DNA from: Roseburia faecis
GTDB lineage: Bacteria > Bacillota > Clostridia > Lachnospirales > Lachnospiraceae
Direction: 5' to 3'
DNA length: 64,000 nucleotides
NCBI RefSeq assembly: GCF_001406815.1
Contig: NZ_CVRR01000005.1
Coordinates: 372,001 to 436,000 of the forward strand
Shown here: one piece after another, positions 35,806-51,269 of the stretch
Layout: the number at the start of each line of letters is the position of its first letter
Numbering within the stretch: the stretch's first letter is position 1
Notes under the pieces: generated by a model
Told to the model about the DNA's origin: nothing
Database searches by the model: none
What the model saw: the letters and a program-made list of their open reading frames with translations, nothing else
Program-made: the position numbers and the translations under genes

Positions 35806-35988
35806 AATATTCATGTTAGTTTAATCTAATAGGCAGAAGGAACACTTTTCCGAAAAGGGAGATAGATTTTTATCGCCCCAAAAGAGAAACTGATTATGCA
35901 GACAAATTTTCATTTGTATAACTAAAATCTCAACTTTCCTTATTTTATGCGACTTGGCGGTATGCCTTGCCACTCTATATGTATCCTT

Positions 35989-36014
35989 TTCCCTTGTTTT
36001 TGCCCTTATGAGGT
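35989..36014. other. Left attachment site (attL) of the mobilizable element
   Basis: The 26-bp sequence starting TTCCCTTGTTTTTGCCC and ending TTATGAGGT is repeated exactly at 50258-50283. Its first nine bases TTCCCTTGT are matched by an inverted copy ACAAGGGAA at 36019-36027, the paired-arm arrangement of a core integrase site. It lies 32 bp from the end of the integrase gene. Confidence 0.78.
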
Positions 36015-36045
36015 ATCTACAAGGGAAAGTTTTTCTTATTCGATT

Positions 36046-37344: not shown

Positions 37345-37427
37345 AATCGTTTCTCCTTTCGATATCGGCAATCGGAACTGGTGAAATGCTTCTTGCGTGT
37401 AAGTATATCATAGCTCCGTCTGCCTAT

Positions 37428-38051
37428 CTATACCGAATCGGGATCTTTTTCTGATAAAAGATTGGCTAGTCGATTTTTCGCTGTCTCAGGATTCTTAGAA
37501 TACAGTCTTACAATATCGCCCATATCGTTCAATGCGTTGACGGTGTGGGTGATTTCTCTAAGGAACATAATCTCATTGTATTCCTTATTGGATTCAAACC
37601 CCATTGTCTGGGCGAGCATTTTGTTATCTGTATTTCCTTTGAAATTCTTACAAGCGAACTGGAACGAATCCACGAACAGCTCGTATTCCCGTAACATCAG
37701 TAGTAGCAGGTCTTTGGAAAAATCACTTTCGGACTGTTCCATATCATAAGGGAGCTTATTCAGAATGGAAGTCATCACATCACGAATCTGTAATTCTCTT
37801 TTATCCGTAATGTCTGTTTCGTATTCGTCCGTCTCACCTTTCAGCCATTCCACAGATACATGAAGTGCATCTGCCAGACCTTCTAAGGTCATTTTCTTGG
37901 TGTTATCAATCGTTCCTGCTTCGTATCTCTGAATGGTTGAGGCTGTCACGCCCATTTTTTCAGCGACATAAGGCTGGTTCAATCCTAACTCCTGTCTACG
38001 GCTTTTTGCTCTGCTACCGATTGTCTTTCGCAATTCTTTATCTTTTAACAT
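37428..38051 (-). CDS. XRE-family repressor of the mobilizable element
   Basis: A 207-residue regulator with an N-terminal helix-turn-helix (SRAKSRRQELGLNQPYVAEK, then GVTASTIQRYEAG) and a C-terminal helical domain of unknown type. AAGGAGG precedes ATG 38051. It is divergent from the excisionase gene, and the operator-like palindromes between them overlap both promoters, so it most likely keeps excision off and limits its own synthesis. Confidence 0.87.
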   Translation of the reverse strand: MLKDKELRKTIGSRAKSRRQELGLNQPYVAEKMGVTASTIQRYEAGTIDNTKKMTLEGLADALHVSVEWLKGETDEYETDITDKRELQIRDVMTSILNKLPYDMEQSESDFSKDLLLLMLREYELFVDSFQFACKNFKGNTDNKMLAQTMGFESNKEYNEIMFLREITHTVNALNDMGDIVRLYSKNPETAKNRLANLLSEKDPDSV

Positions 38052-38082
38052 ACTTGCGAACCTCCTTTTTCGGTATGTCATT

Positions 38083-38118
38083 ACTATACCACATAACACG
38101 ATATATTGCAATACGCAA
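38083..38118 (-). promoter_or_regulatory. Repressor gene promoter with overlapping operator
   Basis: On the minus strand TTGCAA (38106-38111) and TATAGT (38083-38088) are 17 bp apart. The -35 lies within TTGCAATACGCAA (38106-38118), a variant of the palindrome TTGCGTAACGCAA found near the excisionase promoter. Confidence 0.65.
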
Positions 38119-38149
38119 TTCTATAAAAGATGATAGAATTTCGTAAGGC

Positions 38150-38201
38150 TTGACATAGCGTTATAAAAGATATATACTTTAATCAGAATTGCGTAACGCA
38201 A
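38150..38201 (+). promoter_or_regulatory. Excisionase promoter and operator
   Basis: Near-consensus TTGACA (38150-38155), 17-bp spacer, TATACT (38173-38178). The perfect palindrome TTGCGTAACGCAA lies at 38189-38201, over the transcription start, where a bound repressor would block initiation. Confidence 0.75.
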
Positions 38202-38288
38202 GTTTTAAAAAAGGCTAATCCTTTCTTCAAAAAGGAACATCCTCTGATATACAAGACTTGTAATCCTACGCAGGAATGAGGTGATCGA

Positions 38289-38522
38289 ATGACAGAATTA
38301 AAGTTTGCTCTCTCCATTGAAGAAGCTGCCGACTATACAGGTATCGGAAGAAACACTCTTAGAAATCTTGTGGAATGGGAAAAGCTGCCTATCCTTAGAG
38401 TGGGAAGAAAAATCTTAATCCGCAGGGAACGATTAGACGAGTTTCTGATTCTCAATGAGGGGAAGGATTTACGAGACAGACACGCAGTAAAAGCGGTCAA
38501 GGGAACAATGAAAAATGAATAA
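38289..38522 (+). CDS. xis: Excisionase (Tn916 Xis-like)
   Basis: A 77-residue basic protein with a winged helix-turn-helix of the excisionase class (LSIEEAADYTGIGRNTLRNL ... LPILRVGRKILIRRERLDEF). It bends DNA at the element ends and directs the integrase towards excision. GAGGTGA precedes the ATG. It is divergent from the repressor and starts the rightward transcript. Confidence 0.9.
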   Translation: MTELKFALSIEEAADYTGIGRNTLRNLVEWEKLPILRVGRKILIRRERLDEFLILNEGKDLRDRHAVKAVKGTMKNE

Positions 38523-38661
38523 GGGACAGTCCTAAGACCATCCCTCTGGTATGTATCTGACTAAAAGCCATGATATACCTACACGCAAATAGATTATATC
38601 ACGGACAAGTCCTCAGATACAACCAGAACTTTTGGAAAATGAGGACAAGATGGATGTGAAT

Positions 38662-38845
38662 GGGTGCAATCGTCCACCCAGTTATAGCTTGTTGGTAGGA
38701 CAAGTCCACCCAAGATGCAAAAGGTGTTATGAATAGTCCACCCAAGCCAGAAAATGAAGTGGGTGCAACCATCCACCCAAGTGAAGCCGACTGGTAGGAC
38801 AAGTCCACCCAACTTACAAAAAGTGCTGTGAGAAGTCATACCAAG
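38662..38845. repeat. 99-bp tandem repeat with iteron-like TCCACCCA boxes
   Basis: Two imperfect copies start with GGGTGCAA at 38662 and 38761. The octamer TCCACCCA occurs five times (38673, 38705, 38737, 38772, 38804), spaced 32, 32, 35 and 32 bp, about three helical turns, so a protein would meet every copy on the same face. TGGGTG inverted copies add short palindromes. No gene is supported here. The placement between xis and the relaxase suggests a replication or transfer control site. Confidence 0.6.
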
Positions 38846-39063
38846 TGTAGCTATGAAAAAAGCTGTCCGACCTATGACAAAAAGTGTACGCTACTATGAT
38901 TTTGAGTGTCCAATCTATGGGGTACATTTTCAAAGAGTTAATAGTAAAAAGCTCTATTAAAATCAAAATGTAATAAAACAATGCACTATTAAAAATGAAA
39001 TTTAATAGGAACTTTTACTACCACTTCCTTGCCAGACACAGTTTAAAAGTAAGCGAAGTAACA

Positions 39064-39265
39064 CAATGCTATTGTCAGGGCAAAAATGCTAACGAATCGT
39101 GCTATTGTTTTTTCGATTTTAATAGCAGACTTCTACTGTTTCTACGGTTTTTGCTAAAAAGTCTGAATAATAGAACAATGCTATTGTTAAGGCAAAAGTG
39201 CTAACGGATTCGTCTATTGTTTCGCTGATTTTCATAGCAATCTTCTAGCATTTCTGTTAAGAAAA
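39064..39265. repeat. 112-bp direct repeat upstream of the oriT region
   Basis: CAATGCTATTGT...GGCAAAA.TGCTAACG occurs at 39064 and again at 39176, with about 80% identity over the unit, including TCTATTGTTT and ATAGCA blocks. CTATTG/CAATAG pairs give internal hairpins. The surrounding interval from 38523 to 39576 holds no convincing gene. Confidence 0.6.
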
Positions 39266-39359
39266 GGGAGTGCCGGATACGGCACATAAAAAGTGTGCCA
39301 TTAAAGGCACAAAATTAGGTGCTGAGGGAACAGTTACAGCTAAAAGTGAACTTCATAAG

Positions 39360-39495
39360 CAAGCCCTCGGCGTTTGAGAGCGAAATACACCCATCGCACA
39401 AAACTTCGTTTTGTACTCTGTGTATTTCGCTCTGCGAGGCTTAGCCGCCACAAGGCGGATGTGTTCGCAAGACGAGTGCCTATGCACTCGCTCAC
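39360..39495 (+). other. Candidate oriT of the mobilizable element
   Basis: Nested hairpins precede the relaxase: 14-bp arms AGAGCGAAATACAC (39377-39390) and GTGTATTTCGCTCT (39420-39433) enclosing ACAAAAC-TTC-GTTTTGT, then CCGCC-ACAA-GGCGG (39445-39458) and GAGTGC-CTAT-GCACTC (39474-39489). A cluster of structured inverted repeats just upstream of a mob gene is typical of a transfer origin. The nick site cannot be read from sequence alone. Confidence 0.55.
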
Positions 39496-39576
39496 AGGGA
39501 AAGTTTACTACTCACATCTCATCTATCTTATCTGTCCTCTTTTCCAAAATCAAAACTGGGAAAGGAGGAAATCGCT

Positions 39577-41142
39577 ATGCCAAGAAATTCATTTGTGCAG
39601 ATGTCAAAGCTCCATAATGTTCGTGGAAGAATCTATTATATCTCCAGTGACAAAAAACAGGAAAATCTCTATGCGGTATATGAAACCACAGACCGAAAAT
39701 TTTGGACAGAACTTGCCAAGTGCAATCAGGCAGAATTTAAGAAAAGCGGTACAGAGGGAAAATGTATCGAAGCAAGAGAATTTATCATTGCCCTGCCGGA
39801 ATCCTTTGTGGATTATCCGCCAGACGGACTATTAAAATATATGACGGATAAATTCAAAAGTCGGTATGGTGTTGATTGTATTGCAGCACTCCATCATAAC
39901 AAACGAAAGACGAATTATCATATCCATCTTATCTTTGCAGAACGAAATTATCTTGACGAACCGATAGAAAAGATTGCCACCAGAAATATGTTCTATGATG
40001 AGAAAGGTAATCATGTTCGTACCAAGAAAGAAATCCTAGACGAGAATGGAACTATCCGTAAAAGGTGTAAGGTGATCAAGAAAGGTGAGGTCTACGAAAG
40101 ACAGATGTTTACCATCAAGGACGCTCGCTTTAAGCAGGAACATTTCTTAGATGAGGTCAAGGTATTTTATACCGATGTCATCAACGGACTTGTCAAAGAT
40201 GAGAAAGAAAAGCTGTCTGCATTCAAGCGTGGGGATGTCTATCTTGCCACTAAGAAAATCGGTAAGAACAATCCAAAGGCAGATAAGATTACACTCAATA
40301 ATAAGGTCATACAGGACTGGAATCGTACTGTGGATCACGCTTTGGTATCGGGGATGGAGCGAAAGGAAATCTTAAAGGTAAAGCAGGAACAGATTTCAAC
40401 TCCGATTAAGGAATCCATTCACAAGTATGGCAATCATCCGGAGCTTTTGTTTATGATTATCTTTCGGGCAATCGAGCTGTTAAAAGAACTCATAAAGTTG
40501 CTGATACAGAAACAGGAACAACAGAAAGCCAGAATCTCCGACCTTATGGAGCGAAGAAATGAAAAACAAGAGAAACAACCAGCTCCATCCGTTACACAGA
40601 CAGACAATCAGACAATTCCTGCTGTGACCCAACCATTCAAAGCACCTGCTACTACTACCGCAGAAAAGACCGTTATTCCGCCAAGACCAAGAATGTCTGA
40701 GCTGGCACACGATTATGAGATGCGACTTGAAGAGATTATGGAGAAACTTAAACGACAAAACAGAGCCATTCATACGCAGGAAGTGAAAAAAGACCTTATT
40801 GACGAGGATTTGAAGAACTGTACAGGATTATTCCAAGGAAAGAAACGAAAGGAATTGCAGGCACAGTCTAACAAATACGCAGAAACGATTAAGATTATGA
40901 AGCAGGGATTATCCCATATCGTGCAGGATTACAAATATCCAACGGTAGATGCGTTCCTGCAAGTCTATAAACAAGGCAAGTCCGAGTATGAATCCTATGT
41001 CAAAGCAAACAAGGAATGGAACTCCAAGTATGGAGAAAACTCAATCCATCGAAAGCTGGCAGAAAAACAGGCAGAAGTTCAGAAACGGGAACAGGACAGA
41101 GATTTTAACTATCGTTCGCCATCAGACAGAGGAGCTAGATAA
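39577..41142 (+). CDS. MobA/MobL family relaxase
   Basis: A 521-residue protein. The N-terminal ~190 residues are a relaxase domain with the HxH metal motif (TNYHIHLIFAER, preceded by HHNKRK); candidate catalytic tyrosines lie in GRIYYISSD near the start. The rest is a charged, Gln/Lys-rich, largely helical tail with a hydrophobic patch (LLFMIIFRAIELLKELIKLL). It nicks oriT and pilots the strand during conjugation driven by another element. The ribosome binding site AAGGAGG is excellent. It ends at a bidirectional terminator shared with the agr operon. Confidence 0.88.
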   Translation: MPRNSFVQMSKLHNVRGRIYYISSDKKQENLYAVYETTDRKFWTELAKCNQAEFKKSGTEGKCIEAREFIIALPESFVDYPPDGLLKYMTDKFKSRYGVDCIAALHHNKRKTNYHIHLIFAERNYLDEPIEKIATRNMFYDEKGNHVRTKKEILDENGTIRKRCKVIKKGEVYERQMFTIKDARFKQEHFLDEVKVFYTDVINGLVKDEKEKLSAFKRGDVYLATKKIGKNNPKADKITLNNKVIQDWNRTVDHALVSGMERKEILKVKQEQISTPIKESIHKYGNHPELLFMIIFRAIELLKELIKLLIQKQEQQKARISDLMERRNEKQEKQPAPSVTQTDNQTIPAVTQPFKAPATTTAEKTVIPPRPRMSELAHDYEMRLEEIMEKLKRQNRAIHTQEVKKDLIDEDLKNCTGLFQGKKRKELQAQSNKYAETIKIMKQGLSHIVQDYKYPTVDAFLQVYKQGKSEYESYVKANKEWNSKYGENSIHRKLAEKQAEVQKREQDRDFNYRSPSDRGAR

Positions 41143-41152
41143 TCTAATTAAA

Positions 41153-41195
41153 TTCAAAAAAGATAAAGACCATCAAATTCTTTATCTTTTTTGAA
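41153..41195. terminator. Bidirectional terminator between relaxase and agrB
   Basis: Perfect 17-bp arms TTCAAAAAAGATAAAGA (41153-41169) and its reverse complement (41179-41195), U-rich on both strands. It separates the convergent relaxase and agrB transcripts. Confidence 0.85.
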
Positions 41196-41216
41196 TATTT
41201 ATGAAAAGTCATCCTG

Positions 41217-41783
41217 CTATTTAAAGTGTCTCATTAGATTTTTAATTGTTTCGACTATCATAAGAATGATTACGCAGAAAAAGGAATAAAACAATGTGGT
41301 ATTCATCTTCGTGTTTCCAATTTTATAAAACAGCAGAAATCCAATGCTAACAATTATCACAGAAATAAGTTTATGTATCCATTTTTGTTTGGTGGTTAAA
41401 CATATTTTATGGTTACTTATAGGTGCAAATAATATACACATAAGGACAAGTATCAAATATCCTAGTACAGTTGGCTTTAAATAGATTATAGCCCACTTAT
41501 CAAGACAACCGAGAAAAAAGCTGCCTAAGATACATGTTAACTGCGTTGGAGCATGGGCACCTCCGGTATAATGTCGTAACAATGAAAAGGTAATTACCCA
41601 AATTAGGGTATAGCCGAGTGTATGTGATAAAACTCCCCATACGAACAATAACACTATGGTTATAAAAGTATTCAAAAAACATTCTAAGCCATATATGTAT
41701 ATTTCTAATTGATCCGCAGAAACATCCTCCCCGGATAGTTCTGCTAACTTATTAGCAATAGATGTAGCCCACTTCGTAATCAT
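41217..41783 (-). CDS. agrB: AgrB-like autoinducer-processing membrane protease
   Basis: A 188-residue membrane protein with about five or six hydrophobic segments and the AgrB catalytic signature LLRHYTGGAHAPTQLTC, where His and Cys are seven residues apart as in staphylococcal AgrB. AgrB trims the AgrD precursor at its C-terminus and forms the thiolactone. It is the last of three minus-strand genes, overlapping the regulator gene by 4 bp. Its substrate is most likely the AgrD-like peptide encoded on the other strand at 45639, almost 4 kb away, an unusual arrangement. Confidence 0.9.
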   Translation of the reverse strand: MITKWATSIANKLAELSGEDVSADQLEIYIYGLECFLNTFITIVLLFVWGVLSHTLGYTLIWVITFSLLRHYTGGAHAPTQLTCILGSFFLGCLDKWAIIYLKPTVLGYLILVLMCILFAPISNHKICLTTKQKWIHKLISVIIVSIGFLLFYKIGNTKMNTTLFYSFFCVIILMIVETIKNLMRHFK

Positions 41784-42514
41784 TCAAAATCCCCGCTTGT
41801 ATCAAATCTTGTTGTATATTTGGTAAAAGCACTTATCACGTCTTTGGAATAAGAACGTGCGATTTGTGTAGTTAGATGATTTGACAATTCAATCGTTCCT
41901 GATGTAATACGATAGATATGTGCCATATTTACAATATAAGAACGATGGGTTCGGATAAATTCACTTGGCAAATGGACAATAATCTTATTTAGGGTAGACA
42001 TTTGTTCATAGCATTTGCCGTCTACGGTCAATATATCCACATAATGTAATCTGCTCGAAAATGTCAATATATCTGCATAGGGAATACTTACAATTTCCTG
42101 CTTGTTTCGGTATATGTAGGTATTATTAGATAACTCCTTCGCGATTTCATCCAAACACAGAAAAAGAGTATTTTCCTTGACGGGTTTTAGCAAGTAGTTT
42201 AAAGCTCTGACTTCATATCCTCGGAATACATATTCTCTAAAAGCTGTTAAAAATACAATAATACCTTGATAACCAGATTCACGAAGGCGTTTAGCAACCT
42301 CAATTCCATTCATTTGCCCCATTTGTATGTCAAGGAAAAATGCTGAAGCCTGTATAGTTGTGCCTTCAGAATTTTTTGAAAAATATTCTTCGCCCGATTC
42401 GTATTCGTCAATTTCAATATCCCAATCATATTGCTGCCCGTATTTTCTTATTCCATTTTTCAGCCGTTCTGATTCGATCACAGAATCTTCAAGTATGGTT
42501 ATTTTCATTTTCAT
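41780..42514 (-). CDS. AgrA-like LytTR response regulator
   Basis: A 244-residue regulator with receiver domain (ITILEDS, Asp in FFLDIQMGQMNG, Lys in YLLKPVK) and a C-terminal LytTR DNA-binding domain (about 135-240: LTFSSRLHYVDILTVDGKCY ... FIRTHRSYIVN). LytTR proteins bind paired 9-bp direct repeats, and such repeats are present before both cargo transcription units. Both its start and stop overlap the neighbours by 4 bp (ATGA), so the three proteins are made together. Confidence 0.92.
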   Translation of the reverse strand: MKMKITILEDSVIESERLKNGIRKYGQQYDWDIEIDEYESGEEYFSKNSEGTTIQASAFFLDIQMGQMNGIEVAKRLRESGYQGIIVFLTAFREYVFRGYEVRALNYLLKPVKENTLFLCLDEIAKELSNNTYIYRNKQEIVSIPYADILTFSSRLHYVDILTVDGKCYEQMSTLNKIIVHLPSEFIRTHRSYIVNMAHIYRITSGTIELSNHLTTQIARSYSKDVISAFTKYTTRFDTSGDFE

Positions 42515-43863
42515 AGTAGTTTGTTATTCTCCTTATCCGGTATCATAATATGTACGGAAAAAATTTTGTTATCAGATGTAATCTGCAATACGCCATCTGC
42601 CTTTTCTACAAGCTCTTTTACTCGTCTTATCCCAAGTCCATGTTCTTTTCCTTGTTTAACACTCAAAATGTCTCCATCAATGCTACCTTTTATCACACCA
42701 TCATAATTATTTTCAATGTGAATCAGTATCATATTCTGGTAAGGTTTAATATAAAAATAAATGTATGGATGCTCGGTTGGATCAGAGATTATAAGTCTTT
42801 CTCCTGCTTCAATGGAATTATTCCATATATTTCCAAGTATGGATGAAAGCTCAACAGAATCAAGCGGAAAATTTTCAGGAGCCATAATAGAATATTCTGT
42901 CTTAATTCCGTGTTTTTCAGCATAATCAAGTTTTGCGGTAAGTATGCAGTCAATAGCAATATTTCCCGTTGCTATGGCACTTTGCGTAGTTGCAAGAGTG
43001 TTATGGTATTGCTCTGTATATGCTATAAGTTCATCCCATTTCTTGTCTTTTGCTAATACGTTGATTGCATCCACATAAATCTGCATATCATGTTTCATTT
43101 TTCGTAATCGTTCAGTTGTCTCAGATAAGCTATTGAACTCAGTCCTTTCCAGCTCATAAATCTTTTGTTCTTCCAGTAATCGTATGTTTTCTTCTTTTGA
43201 ATAACCTAGCTGGTATATGTATAGCATCAATACTAAAAATAAAATAATAAAAAACAAGTCAACCAATGATAGCCTAGCTGAAAAGGATGAATCACCAAAT
43301 TTATCAACAGATTCCAAAGTCAGCCTTAATATGTAGTGCCCGATTGCAAGTCCAGAAATTGCGATGAAAATATATGCAACTTTTTGGAACGGTGAAAGAG
43401 ATATGTCTTTGTTTCCAATAGAATGAAATAACAAGACAAAAACAGCTATCATTGCCAAATATAACATGGTATATGGCTTCCGTAATGTTCCACCTAATAA
43501 TAGCTCCAGAGACGCTCCTTTATAAAGAGTAACGGGAATAAAGAACGAAATCTGTTCTGCAACTAAGCAAATGATGGAATACGAAAAGCCCCAAAAGATA
43601 CGGCGAATTATACTATCACGATAGAACAATACTGCATATCCAATGTCCAAAACACAAGATGACATCAAAGTGCTGTAGGATGATATTCCCATTTTATTCA
43701 GCGTGCATAACACAGCAAACTGAAATGATACGAAAAGAAACATCAAAACTGCTTGATGTTTATAATTTGCTCGAATACGCAATTTTTTATGGATAAATAT
43801 TATAAACAATGCCAGTTCTAAGAAATTAACAATATATTCCCATATTGAGTCAATATATAGCAT
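42511..43863 (-). CDS. AgrC-like receptor histidine kinase
   Basis: A 450-residue kinase. It has six to seven N-terminal transmembrane helices (residues ~1-210), the sensor of AgrC-type receptors; a coiled-coil dimerisation segment; phospho-acceptor His in RLRKMKHDMQIYVD; and an HATPase_c_5-type catalytic domain (ILGNIWNNSIEAG; GLGIRRVKELVEK). It should bind the cyclic peptide outside the cell and phosphorylate the LytTR regulator. ATG 43863 with AGGAAG upstream is preferred to a GTG nine bases earlier. First gene of the agr operon. Confidence 0.9.
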   Translation of the reverse strand: MLYIDSIWEYIVNFLELALFIIFIHKKLRIRANYKHQAVLMFLFVSFQFAVLCTLNKMGISSYSTLMSSCVLDIGYAVLFYRDSIIRRIFWGFSYSIICLVAEQISFFIPVTLYKGASLELLLGGTLRKPYTMLYLAMIAVFVLLFHSIGNKDISLSPFQKVAYIFIAISGLAIGHYILRLTLESVDKFGDSSFSARLSLVDLFFIILFLVLMLYIYQLGYSKEENIRLLEEQKIYELERTEFNSLSETTERLRKMKHDMQIYVDAINVLAKDKKWDELIAYTEQYHNTLATTQSAIATGNIAIDCILTAKLDYAEKHGIKTEYSIMAPENFPLDSVELSSILGNIWNNSIEAGERLIISDPTEHPYIYFYIKPYQNMILIHIENNYDGVIKGSIDGDILSVKQGKEHGLGIRRVKELVEKADGVLQITSDNKIFSVHIMIPDKENNKLL

Positions 43864-43895
43864 AGCTACCACTTCCTTTAATCATTCTCCGTCAT

Positions 43896-43924
43896 ATTTT
43901 ATCATCAATAAAGTAGGTACACAA
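43896..43924 (-). promoter_or_regulatory. Promoter of the kinase-regulator-agrB operon
   Basis: On the minus strand TTGTGT (43919-43924), 17-bp spacer, TAAAAT (43896-43901). It is back-to-back with the LytTR-controlled promoter, leaving the LytTR boxes just upstream of its -35, so the regulator could affect both directions. Confidence 0.6.
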
Positions 43925-43935
43925 CATAATATGCT

Positions 43936-44004
43936 ACCGTTTGTGCATAGTGAGCTACCATTCATGCATAGAGGTATTGAAAAGTATAAAGATTTTGTTA
44001 TATT
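43936..44004 (+). promoter_or_regulatory. LytTR box and promoter P1 (matrixin unit)
   Basis: ACCGTTTGT (43936-43944) and ACCATTCAT (43957-43965) are separated by 12 bp, the AgrA-type tandem arrangement. TTGAAA (43977-43982) begins after an 11-bp gap and is followed by a short 16-bp spacer and TATATT (43999-44004). The short spacer fits a promoter that needs an activator. Every element and distance recurs at 45497-45565. Confidence 0.85.
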
Positions 44005-44066
44005 CAAGGTATACTACTACATCTTAAGTATTCTGAGAATCTATAATATGGAGTGGAGATGATAAG

Positions 44067-44111
44067 ATGTCGTACTTTAGGAATATTAACAGGATATATA
44101 ATGTGTACTAG
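44067..44111 (+). CDS. Possible 14-codon leader peptide
   Basis: In the ~190-nt leader of the matrixin gene, ATG 44067 opens MSYFRNINRIYNVY and stops at TAG 44111. GGAG lies 8 nt upstream of the ATG, which is the main support. A second overlapping frame (44101-44160, 19 codons, three Cys) has a weaker AGGA. No family is recognisable; either could be a leader peptide or noise. Confidence 0.3.
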   Translation: MSYFRNINRIYNVY

Positions 44112-44200
44112 TATGTGTTGCGTTTCAATTTTCATAAAGATAACCTTTAAGAATAATTGAAGATAACCGTTGTTACATGATTGAAAAGGAGTGAAGGAGT

Positions 44201-44722
44201 ATGCATTTTAAAAAATCTGTTTTAAAAAATCATTTATTGTATAGCATTATAACTTTAATGGCTATAGCAATGCTATTTCCTATTACGGCATTTGCACAAG
44301 CTTATGTACAAACATGGGATCTTGTTGATTCTGGCAAACATCTAGACTATGACGGAAACAGCACTTACATGAGTTATATTAACACTGGGGCTGCCACATG
44401 GAATGCATATAAATCTGGAGTAATCAGAAAAGACAGTGCTTTTGTTGTAGAAGATGTATACGTAAGCGATGTCAATGCTTCGAATGGATGGGCAGGCATG
44501 ACATATTCTAGTGGTAAAATTGAACTCAATACCTATTATATGAGCGGTTATAGTAATAGTAAAAAACAGAATGTAGCGACACATGAATTGGGACATGCAT
44601 TAGGGTTGGATCACAGTACTTCAACAGATGTTATGGATGCAGCAATTACGGGACATACTAGTACGCAGGCATTATCTCAAAATGATAAAGATTCATATGA
44701 TGCCGCATATAATAATTATTAG
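44201..44722 (+). CDS. Secreted matrixin-type zinc metalloprotease
   Basis: A 173-residue precursor. It has a signal peptide of about 33 residues (basic N-terminus, hydrophobic core LLYSIITLMAIAMLFPITAFA, AQA cleavage) and a small catalytic domain of the matrixin (M10) class with the zinc site HELGHALGLDH and a downstream MDA Met-turn. No propeptide cysteine switch is visible, so activity may start on export. GTGAAGGAG precedes the ATG. As first gene behind LytTR promoter P1 it should be made at quorum. Possible substrates are the exported proteins of the same element or competitor surface proteins; this is inference. Confidence 0.9.
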   Translation: MHFKKSVLKNHLLYSIITLMAIAMLFPITAFAQAYVQTWDLVDSGKHLDYDGNSTYMSYINTGAATWNAYKSGVIRKDSAFVVEDVYVSDVNASNGWAGMTYSSGKIELNTYYMSGYSNSKKQNVATHELGHALGLDHSTSTDVMDAAITGHTSTQALSQNDKDSYDAAYNNY

Positions 44723-44737
44723 GGGAGGGAGAACGCT

Positions 44738-45409
44738 ATGAAAAAATCAAGTATCTATGGTATTTTGTCTATTGTTCTTATCGTAGGAATGTTTTTTACA
44801 GGATGTGCATCCAAAAATAATGCAAGTCAACTGAATACAAATGTATCTAACTTGCCAATCCACCAGATGCACGCATCTTTTGTATATGATACTGATAACA
44901 TTCGCGAAGCTGTTGGTATCTGTGATTACGTATTTGTAGCAAAGGTTGTCAGTTGCGATGGAACCGAGTATCGAAATGTTATAACGACTGAAGATGAAAA
45001 AGGAAATCCTAAGGAGGTCGGTTCGCCTTACACTAATTATACTATTCAGGTTCTCGAAAATATAAAAGGTGAACTTATTACAGATAAACCTATTCCTATT
45101 GTTAAACAAGGCGGAATTTCAGAAAAACAAGATGCTATTTATCTGTTTGAGAATGATTCACTGCCTTCCGAAAATTCCATTTATATCTTTTTGGCATATG
45201 CACAAGAGGATGGTTCGTTACTAATTTCTGGTCCAAATTCAAATGTAATGTGTAACGATTCGAATATGTATTCTATTAATTCTGTCTCAGAGGAAAAATC
45301 AGTTACAGAATACGATGAGTTTATTACATATAAAGATGCTAATGATAATGAGATTATTCCAGTTGATCGAGAGCGTTATAAATCTATATATGAGACTGAC
45401 AATAATTAA
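44738..45409 (+). CDS. Quorum-controlled lipoprotein of unknown function
   Basis: A 223-residue lipoprotein with lipobox FFTGC (Cys23). After a short linker the mature part runs IREAVGICDYVFVAKVVSC ... YTNYTIQVLENIKGEL ... PIVKQGG ... SIYIFLAYAQEDGSLLISG, a beta-rich pattern. The protein encoded at 48545 follows the same order of blocks (SSLIARITVT ... KTMVKIEEIYKDN ... IYIIEPVSF ... DTYLIFLKN), so the two seem to be diverged members of one family. I do not recognise a named domain. It lies 15 bp after the matrixin gene and before a terminator; immunity or protease-partner roles are possible. Confidence 0.75.
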   Translation: MKKSSIYGILSIVLIVGMFFTGCASKNNASQLNTNVSNLPIHQMHASFVYDTDNIREAVGICDYVFVAKVVSCDGTEYRNVITTEDEKGNPKEVGSPYTNYTIQVLENIKGELITDKPIPIVKQGGISEKQDAIYLFENDSLPSENSIYIFLAYAQEDGSLLISGPNSNVMCNDSNMYSINSVSEEKSVTEYDEFITYKDANDNEIIPVDRERYKSIYETDNN

Positions 45410-45435
45410 TCATTATTTCTGAAATATATAGATTA

Positions 45436-45476
45436 AAGATGGCAGGTAGGTGCTTAACCTATCTGCCATCTTTTCG
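45436..45476 (+). terminator. Terminator of the matrixin-lipoprotein unit
   Basis: AAGATGGCAGGTAGG and CCTATCTGCCATCTT pair with one mismatch/bulge around TGCTTAA-type loop, followed by TTTCGGTTTT. It separates P1 and P2 transcripts. Confidence 0.85.
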
Positions 45477-45496
45477 GTTTTATACCTATATGTAGA

Positions 45497-45565
45497 ACAG
45501 TTCGTGCATGTTGGGCTACCATTCGTGCATAGAGGGATTGAAAAAATTAAATACTCTGTTATATT
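45497..45565 (+). promoter_or_regulatory. LytTR box and promoter P2 (autoinducer unit)
   Basis: ACAGTTCGT (45497-45505) and ACCATTCGT (45518-45526), 12 bp apart; TTGAAA (45538-45543) after 11 bp; 16-bp spacer; TATATT (45560-45565). The layout is identical to P1 and ACAGTT matches the staphylococcal AgrA half-site. It drives agrD, giving positive feedback. Confidence 0.87.
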
Positions 45566-45638
45566 AAGCACATACCATGGTAAACAAATAAAGTTGTCTG
45601 TAATTGTCAGACAATTAAGGAGGGGGGGGGTGAAAACG

Positions 45639-45785
45639 ATGGACAATAAGCAAGTAAACAAGGCACCCCAGAAAAGTGCCCGTCTCGTACTTCAGGCAGT
45701 GACTGCTATTGCTCGAAGTAATGCAAATTCATTGTGCCGTGGTTTGTTGTATGAACCAAAAGTACCAACGCAGTTAAAAAAATAA
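45639..45785 (+). CDS. agrD: AgrD-like cyclic autoinducer peptide precursor
   Basis: A 48-residue peptide laid out like AgrD: an amphipathic N-terminal helix (KSARLVLQAVTAIAR), a core with a single Cys (NSLCRGLLY), and the conserved acidic/proline tail EPKVPTQLKK, comparable to the VEVPKEL tail that AgrB removes. The mature signal is predicted to be a thiolactone of Cys33 with a residue four or five positions on. AAGGAGG is separated from the ATG by a run of nine G bases and TGAAAACG. It is transcribed from LytTR promoter P2, not next to agrB. The family call rests on pattern and context. Confidence 0.85.
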   Translation: MDNKQVNKAPQKSARLVLQAVTAIARSNANSLCRGLLYEPKVPTQLKK

Positions 45786-45803
45786 GATTGGGAGGAATTG
45801 ACT

Positions 45804-46223
45804 ATGATGTTAAAAAGTTTAAAACAGAAGATTGCAAAAGTAGGTATTGGTTTGTTTTGTGCAGGATGTGTATTTCTTTCTTCAGCAGCATATTCTCAGG
45901 CGGCATCTTACACCGCTTATGCACTTAAACTGAATAAGACTAATAACTTTACCTCTATGCATGCAAAAACAACATCCGATGATTACATCACAAATGAGGT
46001 AACAGCAATTACCAATACCTCTTACGCAAATTTCTGGGCTGTCAATAACAGCAAGAGTAAAATATCTAATAAGTATAAGCAGGGTGTTGGAACAGGATCT
46101 TGTAATTTAATCTTTACCAAGAGCGGTTATAATTCTACTAACACACAGGTCGGTATGGGAATGGAAAATTATCAATCTCAATTATCAACTGCATTTGTAA
46201 GTGGAAATGTAGATTTTAGATAA
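45804..46223 (+). CDS. Small exported protein, candidate secreted effector
   Basis: A 139-residue precursor. It has a signal peptide (basic start MMLKSLKQKIAK, hydrophobic core VGIGLFCAGCVFLSSAAYSQA, cleavage near AAS) and a mature domain of about 100 residues rich in Asn, Ser, Thr and Tyr with a beta-type pattern ending FVSGNVDFR. The overall look recalls lactococcin-972 / DUF2712-type exported proteins, which also travel with a two-permease ABC transporter, but I cannot confirm this. It lies 18 bp after agrD with a strong GGGAGG site and before a leaky-looking terminator, so it should be the most abundant product of the P2 unit. Confidence 0.75.
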   Translation: MMLKSLKQKIAKVGIGLFCAGCVFLSSAAYSQAASYTAYALKLNKTNNFTSMHAKTTSDDYITNEVTAITNTSYANFWAVNNSKSKISNKYKQGVGTGSCNLIFTKSGYNSTNTQVGMGMENYQSQLSTAFVSGNVDFR

Positions 46224-46233
46224 CAGAAGGGAT

Positions 46234-46267
46234 GGGCATAAACCTCTTCGTGGGTTTATGCCCTTTT
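46234..46267 (+). terminator. Terminator or attenuator before the ABC genes
   Basis: GGGCATAAACC (46234-46244) and GGTTTATGCCC (46253-46263) pair perfectly and are followed by only four T. Partial read-through would give high levels of the exported protein and lower levels of the transporter. Confidence 0.75.
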
Positions 46268-46277
46268 GGTAAAGATT

Positions 46278-47108
46278 ATGAAAAAAATGGTTCTTATAGA
46301 AATCAAACATTGTATTGATCGTGCAGAATATAAAGTTGTTTTTATTGCTCTAATGATTTTAAATATTGCTTCGTATATTTTATGTGTAAAAAATGATATA
46401 GGAAAAAGTTATCAATTTATTCGTTCAGCAAATGAAAATTTCGTATTACAGGGCACTGAAGCGGCATATATTCCATATATAATGTATCTGTTATTGCCTG
46501 TTTATGCAACAATTATTGCATCACTTTCCTTAATAAGAGAAGAAAAAAGCAATAGTTCAATCCTACTTATTCAAAGAATCGGGAAAAAGAAATATTTAGC
46601 AGGAAAATTATTTGGCATTCTGATTGTAACCTTTTTGACAATAACAATACCAATGCTCATAAATTTATTATTATGCCACTTGACATATCCAATACATGGA
46701 TATGACAGTGCTTGGGGAGAACCTGATTACGCTATAGGTTTGGTATCATATAACGCTGACAATTTTCTTGATATGGTGAGATTGCAACATCCAACTTTAT
46801 ATAATCTAATATACATTTTTAATTACGGAATTTTTGGCTCGGGATTAGCTATCTTAGCTTATGCTCTTTCATATTATAACAAAATGAAAGTTCTATATTT
46901 CGCAAAGATACCTGGTGCTTTGTTTATATTCTATATTGTTTTTAATTTGATTGTTTCTGTCTTTGGGCTAAATGAATTCTCTATACAAGGTTATATTATG
47001 CCTAATGTTCATGGAAATATAATAGGAGAAATTGTTCTGATATTGCTTATTTTTGGATTAAGTATTGGCATTATACAGAGAAAAATAAAAAATTATGAAG
47101 TTATATAA
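46278..47108 (+). CDS. ABC-2-like permease of the quorum-controlled exporter
   Basis: A 276-residue membrane protein with about six hydrophobic segments (YIPYIMYLLLPVYATIIASL; ILIVTFLTITIPMLINLLL; ILIFGLSIGII). The conserved-looking LIREEKSNSSILLIQRIGKKKYLAGKL resembles the ABC-2 loop. ATG 46278 is preferred; a TTG twelve bases upstream lies in the preceding hairpin. It overlaps the next gene by 14 bp. With that gene and the ATPase it probably forms a self-protection or export pump. Confidence 0.72.
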   Translation: MKKMVLIEIKHCIDRAEYKVVFIALMILNIASYILCVKNDIGKSYQFIRSANENFVLQGTEAAYIPYIMYLLLPVYATIIASLSLIREEKSNSSILLIQRIGKKKYLAGKLFGILIVTFLTITIPMLINLLLCHLTYPIHGYDSAWGEPDYAIGLVSYNADNFLDMVRLQHPTLYNLIYIFNYGIFGSGLAILAYALSYYNKMKVLYFAKIPGALFIFYIVFNLIVSVFGLNEFSIQGYIMPNVHGNIIGEIVLILLIFGLSIGIIQRKIKNYEVI

Positions 47109-47895
47109 GAAAAAAATTTTGAATGTTAATGTTGGAAAATGCTTACTAGTATCACTTATAACATTTGTAATTAGATATTTTTATGCTAATGTGTACTTGG
47201 GGTTTCATAATAGTCTGGTTACAATAACAGAAGGAGTACGTTCACAAATATATTTTGGGGGAATACTAATAGATCATTCGTTTGACCTTATATCTTTATC
47301 ATTTTTTGCGATTTTGTTTATCCTTGAGATTTGTTATCTTACAATGGACTTATTTAATGATGCAAATGATAACATGGTAATTCTACTTCCTCGTTATGGG
47401 AAAAAACACATAATTTATAAGGATATATTAATAAAAATGATATTACGTGACTGTATTGTAGTTGTTTCCGATTATTTGTTTTTTCTTTTTGTAGAGCATA
47501 CCTCTAATGGCTTAGAAGATTTCAAAGTTATTTTTATGCTATTGATAGAGATTTTTCATTTGCAAATGATTAGTTATTTGTTTTCATTTTGGAAAGATTC
47601 AATTATAGGATACATCGTTGCATTTATTGTATTTTTTATTCCAGTAATGGTGTGTGGATTTTATTTTTCAATGGGAAATGTTATATGGAAAATTTGGCAT
47701 TATTCCTTGCTACATATTCCTTTATTTAATTGGCATAACAAGCTTATTATATATTATGTCGAAGAAAATTACGAATGGACTACAAGCAATATAGATTTAT
47801 TGAATTTTAAGTCAAGCTGTCTCATTTCAGTTATATCATCCGCTGTTTTGGTGTGGATAGGTAAATTTCTTTGCGAAAAAAAACAAATATTGTGA
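47095..47895 (+). CDS. Second membrane subunit of the quorum-controlled exporter
   Basis: A 266-residue membrane protein with about six hydrophobic helices and the loop NDNMVILLPRYGKKHIIYKDIL, which matches in position the GKKKYLAGKL loop of its partner. It overlaps the preceding gene by 14 bp and is 14 bp before the ATPase start. Function inferred from context. Confidence 0.68.
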   Translation: MKLYKKKILNVNVGKCLLVSLITFVIRYFYANVYLGFHNSLVTITEGVRSQIYFGGILIDHSFDLISLSFFAILFILEICYLTMDLFNDANDNMVILLPRYGKKHIIYKDILIKMILRDCIVVVSDYLFFLFVEHTSNGLEDFKVIFMLLIEIFHLQMISYLFSFWKDSIIGYIVAFIVFFIPVMVCGFYFSMGNVIWKIWHYSLLHIPLFNWHNKLIIYYVEENYEWTTSNIDLLNFKSSCLISVISSAVLVWIGKFLCEKKQIL

Positions 47896-47909
47896 GGTGA
47901 ATGATATCC

Positions 47910-48545
47910 ATGAATTTATATGTAAAATCTATTTCAAAGTCAATTAAAGGTGAAAAAGTGCTTGATGATATCAGTTATACATTTGAATCTGGTAAAATAT
48001 ATGGAATATATGGTAAAAATGGTTCAGGTAAAACAATGCTACTCAGAGCCATTGCAGGTTTTATAAATACAGACAAAGGATACATAAAATATAATCACAA
48101 GGCATTACATAAAGATATGGATGTTTTACCAGATTTAGGAGCTGTTATTGAAAATATTTCTTTTTGGAGTATGTATTCAGGATTTGAAAATTTGAAAATG
48201 CTTTCCAATATAAAAGGAATTGTATCAGATGAAGAAATATATGAAATAATGATATACTTTGGTCTTGATCCCAAATCAAAGAAAAAAGTAAATAAATATT
48301 CATTAGGAATGCGTCAAAAACTAGCTCTTTGTCAAGCACTGATGGAACATCCAAAAATTTTGCTTTTGGATGAGCCAACTAACGCATTGGATCAGCATAG
48401 CATTGATTTATTTCGTGAACGTATATTGGAAGAAAAAAAGAATGATACCATTACTATACTGACAAGCCATAATAAAGAAGATATTGAAATATTAGCGGAT
48501 GAGAAGATATGCATGGAATTTGGTAAAATTAAGGAGTTGATGTAA
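47910..48545 (+). CDS. ABC transporter ATPase of the quorum-controlled exporter
   Basis: A 211-residue ATPase with Walker A YGKNGSGKT, signature YSLGMRQKLALCQAL, Walker B ILLLDEPTNALD and H-loop ILTSHNKED. Compact, as in bacteriocin-immunity and lactococcin-972-type transporters. ATG 47910 has GAGGTG about 10 nt upstream; an ATG nine bases earlier is too close. Its stop overlaps the next start (TAATG). Confidence 0.9.
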   Translation: MNLYVKSISKSIKGEKVLDDISYTFESGKIYGIYGKNGSGKTMLLRAIAGFINTDKGYIKYNHKALHKDMDVLPDLGAVIENISFWSMYSGFENLKMLSNIKGIVSDEEIYEIMIYFGLDPKSKKKVNKYSLGMRQKLALCQALMEHPKILLLDEPTNALDQHSIDLFRERILEEKKNDTITILTSHNKEDIEILADEKICMEFGKIKELM

Positions 48546-49228
48546 TGAAGAAATTTGTATTAACTATCTGTGTTGTAATCATTTGTATGGTGACAGCCTT
48601 ATTCTATGGAAAGACTGGGATAAAAACAACTACAGGGGTTCATGATCCTGATATTGCTTTATCAGAAAATACAGCTATGGAAATTTTCTATACAGGAGGG
48701 CAGAAAACTTCTTACTTTAACAATGAAAGTAATTACTCATTGGATGATATGGAAAAAGATTCTTCTTTAATAGCTCGTATAACTGTAACAAATTCTCGTG
48801 AAATGAGTTTACGATCAACAAAAACAATGGTAAAAATAGAGGAAATCTATAAGGATAATTCTGCTAATCTTTCAGTAGGTGACTGTATTTACATTATAGA
48901 ACCTGTATCATTTGTTAGAGGTGAAGAATTTTACACTAACGGATGGCAATATCTGAAGACCGAAGATACTTATTTAATATTTTTAAAAAATCTAGGATGT
49001 ATTGATGGGTATAAATACACCAAAGAGGAAGAAAATTCATTTATGCCTGTATCGGAAATATATTCAAAGAGAAATCTAACTCATGATGAAAGTTGTGTGG
49101 TTTTTGATTCGGCGGAAACTCTCTATTCAAGTATATCTATGTTTGCATTTTTGACCTCAGAAAAAACTATAGTAGATAATTATGAGAAAATATGGAAAAA
49201 CATTACAAATTCAGGTAAGTATGAATGA
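48545..49228 (+). CDS. Exported/anchored protein, paralogue-like to the 44738 lipoprotein
   Basis: A 227-residue protein with an N-terminal membrane helix (FVLTICVVIICMVTALFYG), lacking a lipobox, and an extracellular beta-rich domain (SSLIARITVTNSREMSL ... VGDCIYIIEP ... TYLIFLKNLGC). The block order parallels the lipoprotein at 44738. It overlaps the ATPase gene by 1 bp, so it is translated with the transporter; an immunity or accessory role is plausible. No named family recognised. Confidence 0.68.
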   Translation: MKKFVLTICVVIICMVTALFYGKTGIKTTTGVHDPDIALSENTAMEIFYTGGQKTSYFNNESNYSLDDMEKDSSLIARITVTNSREMSLRSTKTMVKIEEIYKDNSANLSVGDCIYIIEPVSFVRGEEFYTNGWQYLKTEDTYLIFLKNLGCIDGYKYTKEEENSFMPVSEIYSKRNLTHDESCVVFDSAETLYSSISMFAFLTSEKTIVDNYEKIWKNITNSGKYE

Positions 49229-49366
49229 TTTAATTATTTATGAATGAATCTCTCCTATTCTATTTCCTGTGAGAAGCGTATCAATGTTAGAAATTCATGG
49301 AGATACTGAATTAAGCAATATGGAATCATTCAATCTTAAAGAAACTAAAAATGGAGATAATAGAAA

Positions 49367-49729
49367 TTGAATAAAAAGAAATTGGCAAAGAGTGTTGTAG
49401 GCATTGCTTTAATTGTAAGTGTAGCTATACTTATCGTTGTATGTGTTGGAAAAATAAAGCACATTCAGAATAAAAAAAATATTATTGGTACATGGAAGAA
49501 TGCAAATGCAGAGGAAGTGTTTACCTTTCAAGAAAATGGAGGACTTGTTGTAAACAAAGATATGCCCGAATTGGGTATTACCTGTGGCAATGCATTATAT
49601 AGCATATCTTCCTCAAATATGATTTTTGTGGAACAGAGAGATAATAGCGTGAATTTTGAGATAGAAGTAGATCAAAACGAATTAACAATCTTCTTTATGG
49701 GTCATAAATATTGGGAATTAACAAAATAG
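49367..49729 (+). CDS. Small membrane-anchored protein, lipocalin-like tail
   Basis: A 120-residue protein with an N-terminal anchor (VVGIALIVSVAILIVVCVG) and an extracellular domain containing IIGTWKNANAEEVFTFQENGG, the GTW...F.F..NG pattern common in lipocalin-like / DUF5640-type domains. Translation would begin at TTG 49367, with GGAG 10 nt upstream. It follows the exporter operon after a 138-bp gap with no feature I can support and precedes a terminator. Confidence 0.6.
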   Translation: MNKKKLAKSVVGIALIVSVAILIVVCVGKIKHIQNKKNIIGTWKNANAEEVFTFQENGGLVVNKDMPELGITCGNALYSISSSNMIFVEQRDNSVNFEIEVDQNELTIFFMGHKYWELTK

Positions 49730-49774
49730 CAATTGCATATAAAGCGATACTCATGATATCCATAACCATAAAAT

Positions 49775-49830
49775 ATAGAGCCGATGAATCACTCGTTATT
49801 TCGATTGTGAGTTATCGGCTCTATTTCATT
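49775..49830 (+). terminator. Terminator at the end of the cargo operon
   Basis: ATAGAGCCGAT (49775-49785) and ATCGGCTCTAT (49814-49824) pair around a 28-nt loop that can itself pair partly; TTCATT follows. Confidence 0.7.
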
Positions 49831-49909
49831 ATTTATGGAAGGGCTAAAGAAATATCGTATTTTATAGAAATACTTTTGACAGATTTCTTCTCATTTTTAT
49901 GTTCTTTTA

Positions 49910-50152
49910 TCAAGTGCTATACCATTCCATATTCATCGCATTCACCCAATCTTGCATTTCTGAATCAAGATACAAACGGGCATATTCTAGTGGATTGTCA
50001 ATCGCCAGTGCATCCAACATTCGTTGAGAGTTAGGAGTAGTAATCAATCCATCTTCTGCCTTGCCACAGTCAATCCGAAGTATGTAGCCATTGTAATAAT
50101 TGATGTCTATGATGTTGTGATATTTATTATATTCTGCATGAACGATATTCAT
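49910..50152 (-). CDS. DUF6061-like small protein
   Basis: An 80-residue soluble protein (MNIVHAEYNKYHNIIDINYY ... LRIDCGKAEDGL ... IDNPLEYARLYLDSEMQDWV). It resembles the small DUF6061 proteins common on Lachnospiraceae mobile elements; function unknown. AAAGGA precedes the ATG. It is the last gene inside the right attachment site. Confidence 0.65.
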   Translation of the reverse strand: MNIVHAEYNKYHNIIDINYYNGYILRIDCGKAEDGLITTPNSQRMLDALAIDNPLEYARLYLDSEMQDWVNAMNMEWYST

Positions 50153-50257
50153 ATTGCAAAGTCCTTTCTCTTATCTGTTTCAGTTGTAGAAGCATCTTGA
50201 CCAGTTCCAGCCGATTATGTGATTTATATAATGTTATTAGCTGTTACCGGATTTTGC

Positions 50258-50283
50258 TTCCCTTGTTTTTGCCCTTATGAGGT
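50258..50283. other. Right attachment site (attR) of the mobilizable element
   Basis: Exact copy of the 26-bp repeat at 35989-36014. Its inverted arm ACAAGGGAA lies at 50292-50300, four bases further away than at the left end. Further AAGGGAAA-type motifs follow at about 50314 and 50325. The interval 50153-50405 contains no gene. Confidence 0.78.
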
Positions 50284-50405
50284 GTCGTAACACAAGGGAA
50301 AAGGATATAACATAAGGGAAAGTCTAAGGGAAAGCTCACTTGCCAAAACTGTAGTAAAATCAAGGCATTGCGGATTTTATCGTAACACTTTATAATACCA
50401 GTTAG

Positions 50406-51269
50406 GTGTTAAAGAATTGTAGGTATCAAAATTTTAATTTATATCCACCGGAATACGATCGTACAACAAAACAGCCAATGAAGGATTTCGGGTTCATCGA
50501 ATCGTTAAAAATCGACTCCATGGTTGTTCTGATCAAAGAAAGCTATCGCGGATTCGCTGATCTGTCACTGGAAAACTATTTTTCCACAGATGAACAGGTT
50601 CTTGATTACCGCCTCGGGGTTGTCGAAGATCTTGTTAACAATCCCAATCTGTACGAAACATTCGGTAAGGCTGTATCCATGATCTACAACATCAACGATA
50701 TGCGCCGCGCGATGAGTTCCGAATTTACCATTGATTCTTCGCTCCGCTCTGTGCGGTACCTGGAATTATATGTGGAAATCGTCACACTGTTTGCCGATAA
50801 TTTATCACAGGCTGCGCTGCAATCCGAAGGCATGAAAAATTTCCAGAAAGAAATCAATGGAATTGCACAGAGCAGCGAGTTTCAAACGCTAAGCTCTGAG
50901 CTTTCCAAGATGGAAACAAATTTCGGATACTTAAAAAGCGTAACGCTTGGCATCAATTTAGACGGAAATCTCTGCCCGATGGAAGCCGGATATATTGCAA
51001 CCGAAGTGCTCACCGGCATCGGCATTATCGGCTGCTGTGGGCTTTATGTCACACACATCCACGATCTGACACAACAACTCGATGTCTACAATTCCCATCC
51101 TGAAAACCGCGGAAAAATTGACAACCTTGTTGCCATGATGGAAAGTAAGGAAGAAGGCACCCGAAGCTACAAGGTGATCCGAACAACCCCGGATGGCTTA
51201 AGCTATGCGAAGGATATTGCCAGACGGTATAGGCTGGATCTGGAAGATATTTTAAAGAATTGTAAATAA
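50406..51269 (+). pseudogene. MutS-family ATPase gene with internal deletion
   Basis: An open frame of 287 codons, read from a GTG without a ribosome binding site. Residues ~27-195 match the helical core (domain III-like) of MutS-family proteins (GFIESLKIDSMVVLIKESYR ... NFQKEINGIAQSSEF). At about residue 195 (nt ~50991) the sequence jumps from CPMEAG to YIATEVLTGIGIIG...LYVTHIHDL, the end of the ATPase domain. Walker A and the main Walker B region are therefore missing in frame. The product cannot be a working MutS ATPase. The 5' end probably also lost its native start, being close to the integrated element. Confidence 0.75.

Follow-up and report, generated by a model that had tools for sequence, protein, structure and literature searches.

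The best explanation of the whole is that two promoters of the same layout, P1 and P2, in the 64,000-nucleotide stretch of Roseburia faecis DNA analysed here (the window) are activated by the phosphorylated AgrA-type LytTR response regulator of the same element, and we consider this very likely. As read from the sequence, P1, P2, the agr genes and their cargo are all on one 14.5-kb mobile element. Judging by the genes around it, the LytTR regulator is part of an agr-type quorum-sensing circuit in which agrD has been split off under its own promoter, P2. The promoters and genes are:

43936..44004, plus strand: P1, tandem LytTR box and TTGAAA-16-TATATT promoter (direct reading, repeat search, shuffle test, promoter scan).
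45497..45565, plus strand: P2, tandem LytTR box and TTGAAA-16-TATATT promoter, 5' of agrD (direct reading, repeat search, shuffle test, promoter scan).
42511..43872, minus strand: agrC-type GHKL histidine kinase (Pfam HATPase_c_5, E=1.6e-18; start chosen by reading, alternative start ATG 43863).
41780..42514, minus strand: agrA-type LytTR response regulator, presumed activator (Pfam LytTR, E=2.5e-16; Response_reg, E=1e-12).
41217..41783, minus strand: agrB, peptide-processing membrane protease (Pfam AgrB, E=3.6e-27).
44201..44722, plus strand: matrixin-like (M10) metalloprotease that contains HELGHALGLDH and begins like a signal peptide (Pfam Peptidase_M10, E=5.8e-9; weak MMP matches; signal peptide by reading only).
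44738..45409, plus strand: lipoprotein-like protein paired with the M10 protease (outside any Pfam family; lipobox seen on reading only).
45435..45473, plus strand: strong terminator hairpin between both transcription units (17-pair stem, then a T-rich tail).
45630..45785, plus strand: agrD, signal-peptide precursor with ...ANSLCRGLLYEPKVPTQLKK (NCBIfam TIGR04223, E=2.4e-10; alternative ATG 45639).
45804..46223, plus strand: small protein whose start resembles a signal peptide (no family; comparable small proteins at this place in sister elements).
46281..48545, plus strand: a pair of membrane proteins, of which the first is ABC-2 type, plus an ABC ATPase like peptide-protection/export ABCs (TIGR03740, E=7.5e-43).

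On direct reading, the half-sites of P1 are ACCGTTTGT (43936-43944) and ACCATTCAT (43957-43965), separated by a gap of 12 bp; 11 bp after the second half-site follows TTGAAA (43977-43982) and, after a further 16 bp, TATATT (43999-44004). P2 has the half-sites ACAGTTCGT (45497-45505) and ACCATTCGT (45518-45526), also with a gap of 12 bp, then TTGAAA after 11 bp (45538-45543) and TATATT after 16 bp (45560-45565). These spacings had been claimed in a preliminary description of this DNA, and both direct reading and a repeat search of the window confirm them to the base. The two boxes are 1,561 bp apart, the promoters are 81% identical across 69 nt in the repeat search, and a promoter consensus scan shows a TG upstream of -10 in both. 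The bases between the half-sites, which had been said to agree, are equal at 9 of the 12 gap positions. Since GCAT is present directly 3' of all four half-sites, the length of the conserved half-site is closer to 13 than to 9 bp, with the form ACMRTTYRTGCAT and a 21-bp period. Differences between P1 and P2 affect 3/38 positions in the 13-bp half-sites and hexamers compared to 10/31 elsewhere (Fisher p = 0.014), whereas the same contrast with 9-bp half-sites is not significant (3/30 vs 10/39, p = 0.13). The half-sites had also been said to fit the AgrA consensus; as a small correction, the core of the second half-sites is ATT and not GTT.

Going by the available extracts of the published work, almost all LytTR regulators have sites of two 9-11-nt repeats that are 11-13 nt apart (PMC4847170), pln promoters have two 9-bp tandem repeats with a 12-bp spacer directly upstream of -35 (PMC2714321), and in the LytTR regulatory systems HdrRM and BrsRM a 12-bp gap is the rule and the repeats tend to lie 10 bp 5' of -35 (PMC6193735). 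P1 and P2 contain direct repeats of 9 nt with a 12-nt gap, and these are located directly 5' of a -35/-10 promoter. The precision of the layout, which had been called unusual, is thus ordinary for LytTR-activated promoters (PMC2714321, PMC6193735).

In the promoter consensus scan of 43800-45700, P1 and P2 are among three sites scoring 10/12. The region contains 11 promoter-like sites compared to 10.6 in shuffles, so the hexamers of P1 and P2 alone are no proof. The pair pattern, in turn, matches twice in the window and never in 100 shuffles, and in the host genome (3,333,086 bases, 100 contigs) only P1 and P2 match at up to three mismatches, with no match of the reversed control. A chance origin of the pair is ruled out by the shuffles and the genome scan. 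The preliminary description had proposed such a scan with a 69-bp model and had argued that a motif found at many unrelated promoters would speak against a link to the divergent LytTR regulator; no third site at up to three mismatches was found in the 3.33-Mb genome.

When the scan was extended to 397 genomes of the family at up to one mismatch, five matches were found in three genomes (two in the own genome, two in G118 and one in G330) and none with the control; across 392 genomes of the order at up to two mismatches, there were eight matches in seven genomes, including the own two, and one with the control. The family and order matches without the window element give seven motif loci elsewhere. 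Five of them (G330, L095, L096, L097 and L100) have a gene encoding a Pfam LytTR domain at a distance of 363-2,264 bp. The LytTR density of the own genome predicts 0.026 such cases per site, and five of seven has P = 2e-7 if the loci are independent; as L096, L097 and L100 are built alike (LytTR, kinase, box, ABC pair), this value overstates the evidence. In L098, the 11.9 kb searched around the motif contained no relative of the regulator, and neither did the 11 kb searched in L099, where the motif is inside a reading frame. Genome-wide uniqueness, the LytTR genes near other motif loci and conservation in sister elements together argue for the link to the divergent LytTR regulator that had been proposed.

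A good -35 at 10-11 bp after the second half-site is present at P1, P2, G330 and G268. The best -35/-10 pair in L020, L095, L096, L097 and L100 scores weakly (6-8 of 12) and is found at a distance other than 10-11 bp. We recognised a box in only two (L020 and L021) of the 15 LytTR loci that are more distantly related (L020-L034); weak box matches in L024, L028 and L030, obtained in a loose LytTR scan with periods of 20-22, were discarded. A recurring module of LytTR regulator, short histidine kinase, tandem box and two large ABC proteins is seen in L020, L021, L096, L097 and L100.

AgrB, AgrC, AgrA and AgrD are encoded together, as in an agr system, where AgrC was called by its GHKL domain and position. 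The agrD reading frame has 51 residues and reaches 40 bits for TIGR04223 (cut-off 19). The NCBIfam equivalog cut-offs are reached neither for AgrA (49 vs cut-off 400 bits) nor for the AgrB-like equivalog (28.5 vs cut-off 282 bits). A solved-structure search with the regulator matched mostly the receiver domain, and a search of viral contigs yielded no relatives of the regulator. The agrC-agrA-agrB genes are divergent from P1, with the listed agrC start about 64 bp from the P1 boxes; the promoter scan of 43800-45700 listed no divergent agrCAB promoter. No Rfam family was found at gathering score in 41000-50500, and thus no RNAIII-like RNA was found there. Between the ribosome-binding site and the agrD start (45620-45630), the window has a run of nine G, compared to 4, 7, 6, 5 and 5 in L013, L014, L015, L017 and L018, and 2 in L019. 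The length of this run may tune agrD translation, or it may partly be an assembly effect.

The M10 metalloprotease is the first long gene 3' of P1. Among the 12 Pfam families matched by this protein, only M10 and Reprolysin_4 are above cut-off. By reading, short reading frames are present in the leader from P1 to the metalloprotease gene (44051-44161). Behind P2, the ABC ATPase scores 147 bits for TIGR03740, below the cut-off of 310. The 139-aa protein (45804..46223) and the small proteins of L013, L019 and the own contig C59 have no family above cut-off; the only hint of a possible bacteriocin role for these small proteins is the neighbouring ABC proteins.

The mobile element is outlined by the following features:

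35913..50433, no strand: mobile element with integrase, relaxase, agr circuit and cargo (14,521 bp with 3 differences in G118).
36046-37371: tyrosine integrase of the mobile element.
39577-41142: MobA/MobL-like relaxase of the mobile element (25.5 bits, just under the Pfam cut-off of 26.7).
35989-36028 and 50258-50301: near-direct repeat, 40/44 nt, near both element ends.

With an integrase, end repeats, a matching copy in another genus and a relaxase match just below the cut-off, this is a candidate integrative mobilizable element. The copy in G118, which we infer to be another genus within Lachnospiraceae, ends with 3,123 bp and 121 bp of stretch beyond it; G118 and L012 (Fusicatenibacter saccharivorans) are probably one assembly.

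Nine close relatives of the regulator were found (L011-L019; 86-100% identical). Both promoters are present in L011 and L012, whereas all seven remaining loci (L013-L019) have a single promoter between agrC and the first cargo gene; for L014 and L017, where the contigs stop about 0.9 kb beyond the promoter, this count is limited to that stretch. The first cargo gene after the single promoter is agrD in six of the seven loci and a lipoprotein-like gene in L016. The left flank of the single promoter resembles P1 and its body resembles P2. Compared to the single-promoter sister elements, the window thus contains an extra promoter and the metalloprotease-lipoprotein cassette. Because the sister elements carry one promoter with P1 flank and P2 body, the likeness of P1 and P2, which had been taken as a precise sign of LytTR control, is at least partly due to common descent. 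Most likely, P1 was copied from the local type of promoter and came in along with the cassette, at the site of the sisters' single promoter, and the promoter duplication would have had this direction.

Between L013 and L019, the half-sites and hexamers are unchanged (38/38 positions) compared to 161/206 positions in the remainder (p = 4e-4). L019 has 10 and not 11 bp before -35, and the cargo after agrD is unlike among the L013 type, L019 and the window. In L016, which is one metagenome-assembled contig, agrB and agrD are both absent; agrC, agrA and the promoter are kept, with one change in the first box. The joint loss of agrB and agrD is expected if this agrB acts on agrD, and an element such as L016 may be able to listen only. 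The agrB match of L014 ends at residue 61 and that of L015 at residue 123, in both cases within the contig.

The M10 metalloprotease has 12 matches in 10 of the 397 family genomes. A lipoprotein-like gene adjoins the M10 gene in 8/8 loci with an M10 identity of at least 42% (seven distinct, window and G118 copy included), so that the two genes form a stable pair. In G268, the pair (protease 78% identical) is located behind a tandem box, CCGTTTTCTGCA/CCGTTATCTGCA, with a 20-bp period. This box pattern has six matches in G268 at up to three mismatches and none with the control. Five of the six are in C4:121162-135458 (14.3 kb) beside agrA, agrC and agrB, which were called by Pfam LytTR, GHKL and AgrB domains, and the sixth is on another contig. 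For each of the five boxes beside the agr genes, the -35 begins 10-11 bp after the second half-site; an agrD was not identified in the G268 locus. When comparing the cassettes of the window and G268, the coding parts align at 72% (window about 44273-45259) and the promoters are in no alignment. Two agr-type regulators thus have the same M10-lipoprotein pair next to them, in each case with the box that is used locally.

Reading of the DNA upstream of the M10 pairs in G395, G314 (two loci) and G383 revealed no box. The pair in G101 has only a vague box candidate. Among the M10 loci elsewhere, clear boxes were seen in G268 alone. The larger G268 locus (L107, C4:119500-139400) contains agr-type genes, the M10-lipoprotein pair and five like-oriented box promoters, where other boxes of the set are near two Cys-rich-peptide radical SAM clusters of the CcpM type (TIGR04068).

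The own genome contains nine AgrD matches (one with an internal stop), ten AgrB matches (nine above cut-off) and 15 LytTR matches. Given the 15 LytTR and nine AgrD matches, the cognate pairing of the regulator with P1 and P2 is proposed from position. Around the remaining agrD loci of this genome, 3-kb stretches were scanned loosely for LytTR boxes (periods 20-22), with no convincing match. By reading, we found a second box type, TTACTTCGTGCA with a 20-bp period, at four places on contigs C19, C92 and C43 (L035, L037 and L088). A scan for it gave eight matches in all compared to three for the reversed control, and four of them look like background. The repeat is located upstream of two other agrD matches, one being that with the internal stop. 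As a distinct box type is present beside other agrD matches, the box sequence is a plausible basis of insulation. On the own contig C59 (L038), an agrD match is followed by genes for a small protein that looks secreted, a lipoprotein-like protein, two more proteins and an ABC ATPase, an order of gene types much like that behind P2.

These observations allow us to weigh activation by the element's own regulator against other explanations. P1 and P2 might be alike only through recent promoter duplication, with inherited boxes and a LytTR link that is non-functional at P1 or at either promoter. Sister elements with one promoter that combines the left flank of P1 with the body of P2, as well as the 81% identity over 69 nt, are in line with this, and a recently copied promoter would look conserved even without function. 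However, the differences between P1 and P2 are mainly outside the 13-bp half-sites and hexamers, the M10-lipoprotein pair of G268 is behind a different, locally matching box, and motif matches elsewhere cluster at LytTR genes; we thus regard duplication without function as unlikely.

Even less likely, in our view, is that the boxes are read by another LytTR regulator of the genome, or by several, resulting in cross-talk between circuits. Candidates for this would be among the 15 LytTR and nine AgrD matches in the genome, but the second box type differs in core and period (20 bp), and the element in another genus carries box and regulator together. Least probable of all, and hardly credible, is that the regulator represses P1 and P2 or that the P1 boxes mainly control the divergent agrCAB operon. 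LytTR repressors such as PlnD exist (PMC2714321, as extracted) and the P1 boxes are close to the listed agrC start (about 64 bp), whereas the direct repeats 5' of -35 in the orientation of P1 and P2 match published activator sites, and the same boxes are present at P2, where no divergent agr gene is adjacent.

If P1 and P2 are indeed activated by the element's own regulator, AgrD would be made from P2, and AgrB would then cleave and cyclise it. The resulting peptide would build up outside the cell; it is probably a thiolactone of five residues that starts at the Cys of CRGLLYEP. Its ring may be CRGLL, by analogy with the Listeria signal, which is described as the cyclic pentapeptide CFMFV in the available part of PMC4916163. 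AgrC would sense the peptide and phosphorylate the LytTR regulator, and a dimer of the regulator would bind the two half-sites, 21 bp apart on one helix face and directly 5' of -35, and recruit RNA polymerase. P2 would provide positive feedback via agrD and would also turn on the secreted protein and the ABC genes, and P1 would turn on the metalloprotease-lipoprotein pair. The agrCAB genes are presumably read from their own divergent promoter, outside the direct loop.

The element would thus combine a compact peptide-signalling circuit and its target promoters on 14.5 kb of mobile DNA that is present in more than one gut-bacterial genus. As this one genome contains several agr-type gene sets in parallel, together with at least two types of box, box sequence and spacing may separate the circuits. 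The one-promoter and two-promoter forms suggest a route for placing new cargo under quorum control. We tentatively propose, while considering it rather doubtful, that mobile agr elements of Lachnospiraceae gain quorum-controlled cargo by promoter-matched cassette capture. The M10-lipoprotein pair would be placed behind the local box 'dialect' (ACMRTTYRTGCAT with period 21 here, CCGTTTTCTGCA with period 20 in G268), with the promoter serving as recombination address, and some elements would later lose agrB and agrD and turn into pure receivers, as L016 might have done.

Several known systems resemble parts of this circuit. The pln regulon of Lactobacillus plantarum (PlnC/PlnD, LytTR-type) is not an AgrD cyclic-peptide circuit; its repeat TACGTTAAT is unlike those of P1 and P2 and, unlike in our model, its sites are shared by an activator and a repressor. 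The HdrRM and BrsRM regulators are paired with a membrane inhibitor and not with a histidine kinase that senses an AgrD peptide. VirR of Clostridium perfringens is a chromosomal regulator, and its box sequence is different. The placement of the repeats is nevertheless like that in P1 and P2, as the available text of PMC2838878 describes VirR boxes as two direct repeats just 5' of -35, on the same helix face and at a fixed promoter position, and part of the VirR regulon as located on plasmids.

Relatives of AgrA, AgrB, AgrC and AgrD are common to the window element and the agr systems of S. aureus and L. monocytogenes. In S. aureus, agrB, D, C and A form one operon read from P2 and the divergent RNAIII is read from P3, whereas agrD in the window is separate and on the opposite strand; unlike in these agr systems, it is apart from agrCAB with its own boxed promoter. 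AgrA is described to bind direct repeats that are located 5' of P2 and P3 and centred around -60 (PMC4227749, in extract); the -35/-10 spacer is 18-20 at these S. aureus promoters and 16 at P1 and P2 of the window. Agr genes on a mobile element have precedents in the phage phiCDHM1 and the possibly mobile agr3 locus of C. difficile (available text of PMC3901668), whereas here the regulator, boxes and cargo are on one element. Among the openly licensed papers listed for Lachnospiraceae agrD and for LytTR or agr genes on mobile elements, no title or abstract opening describes this element, which is a weak negative. The design of the switch is already known, and the modular twist of the element appears to be a second copy of the promoter with extra cargo.
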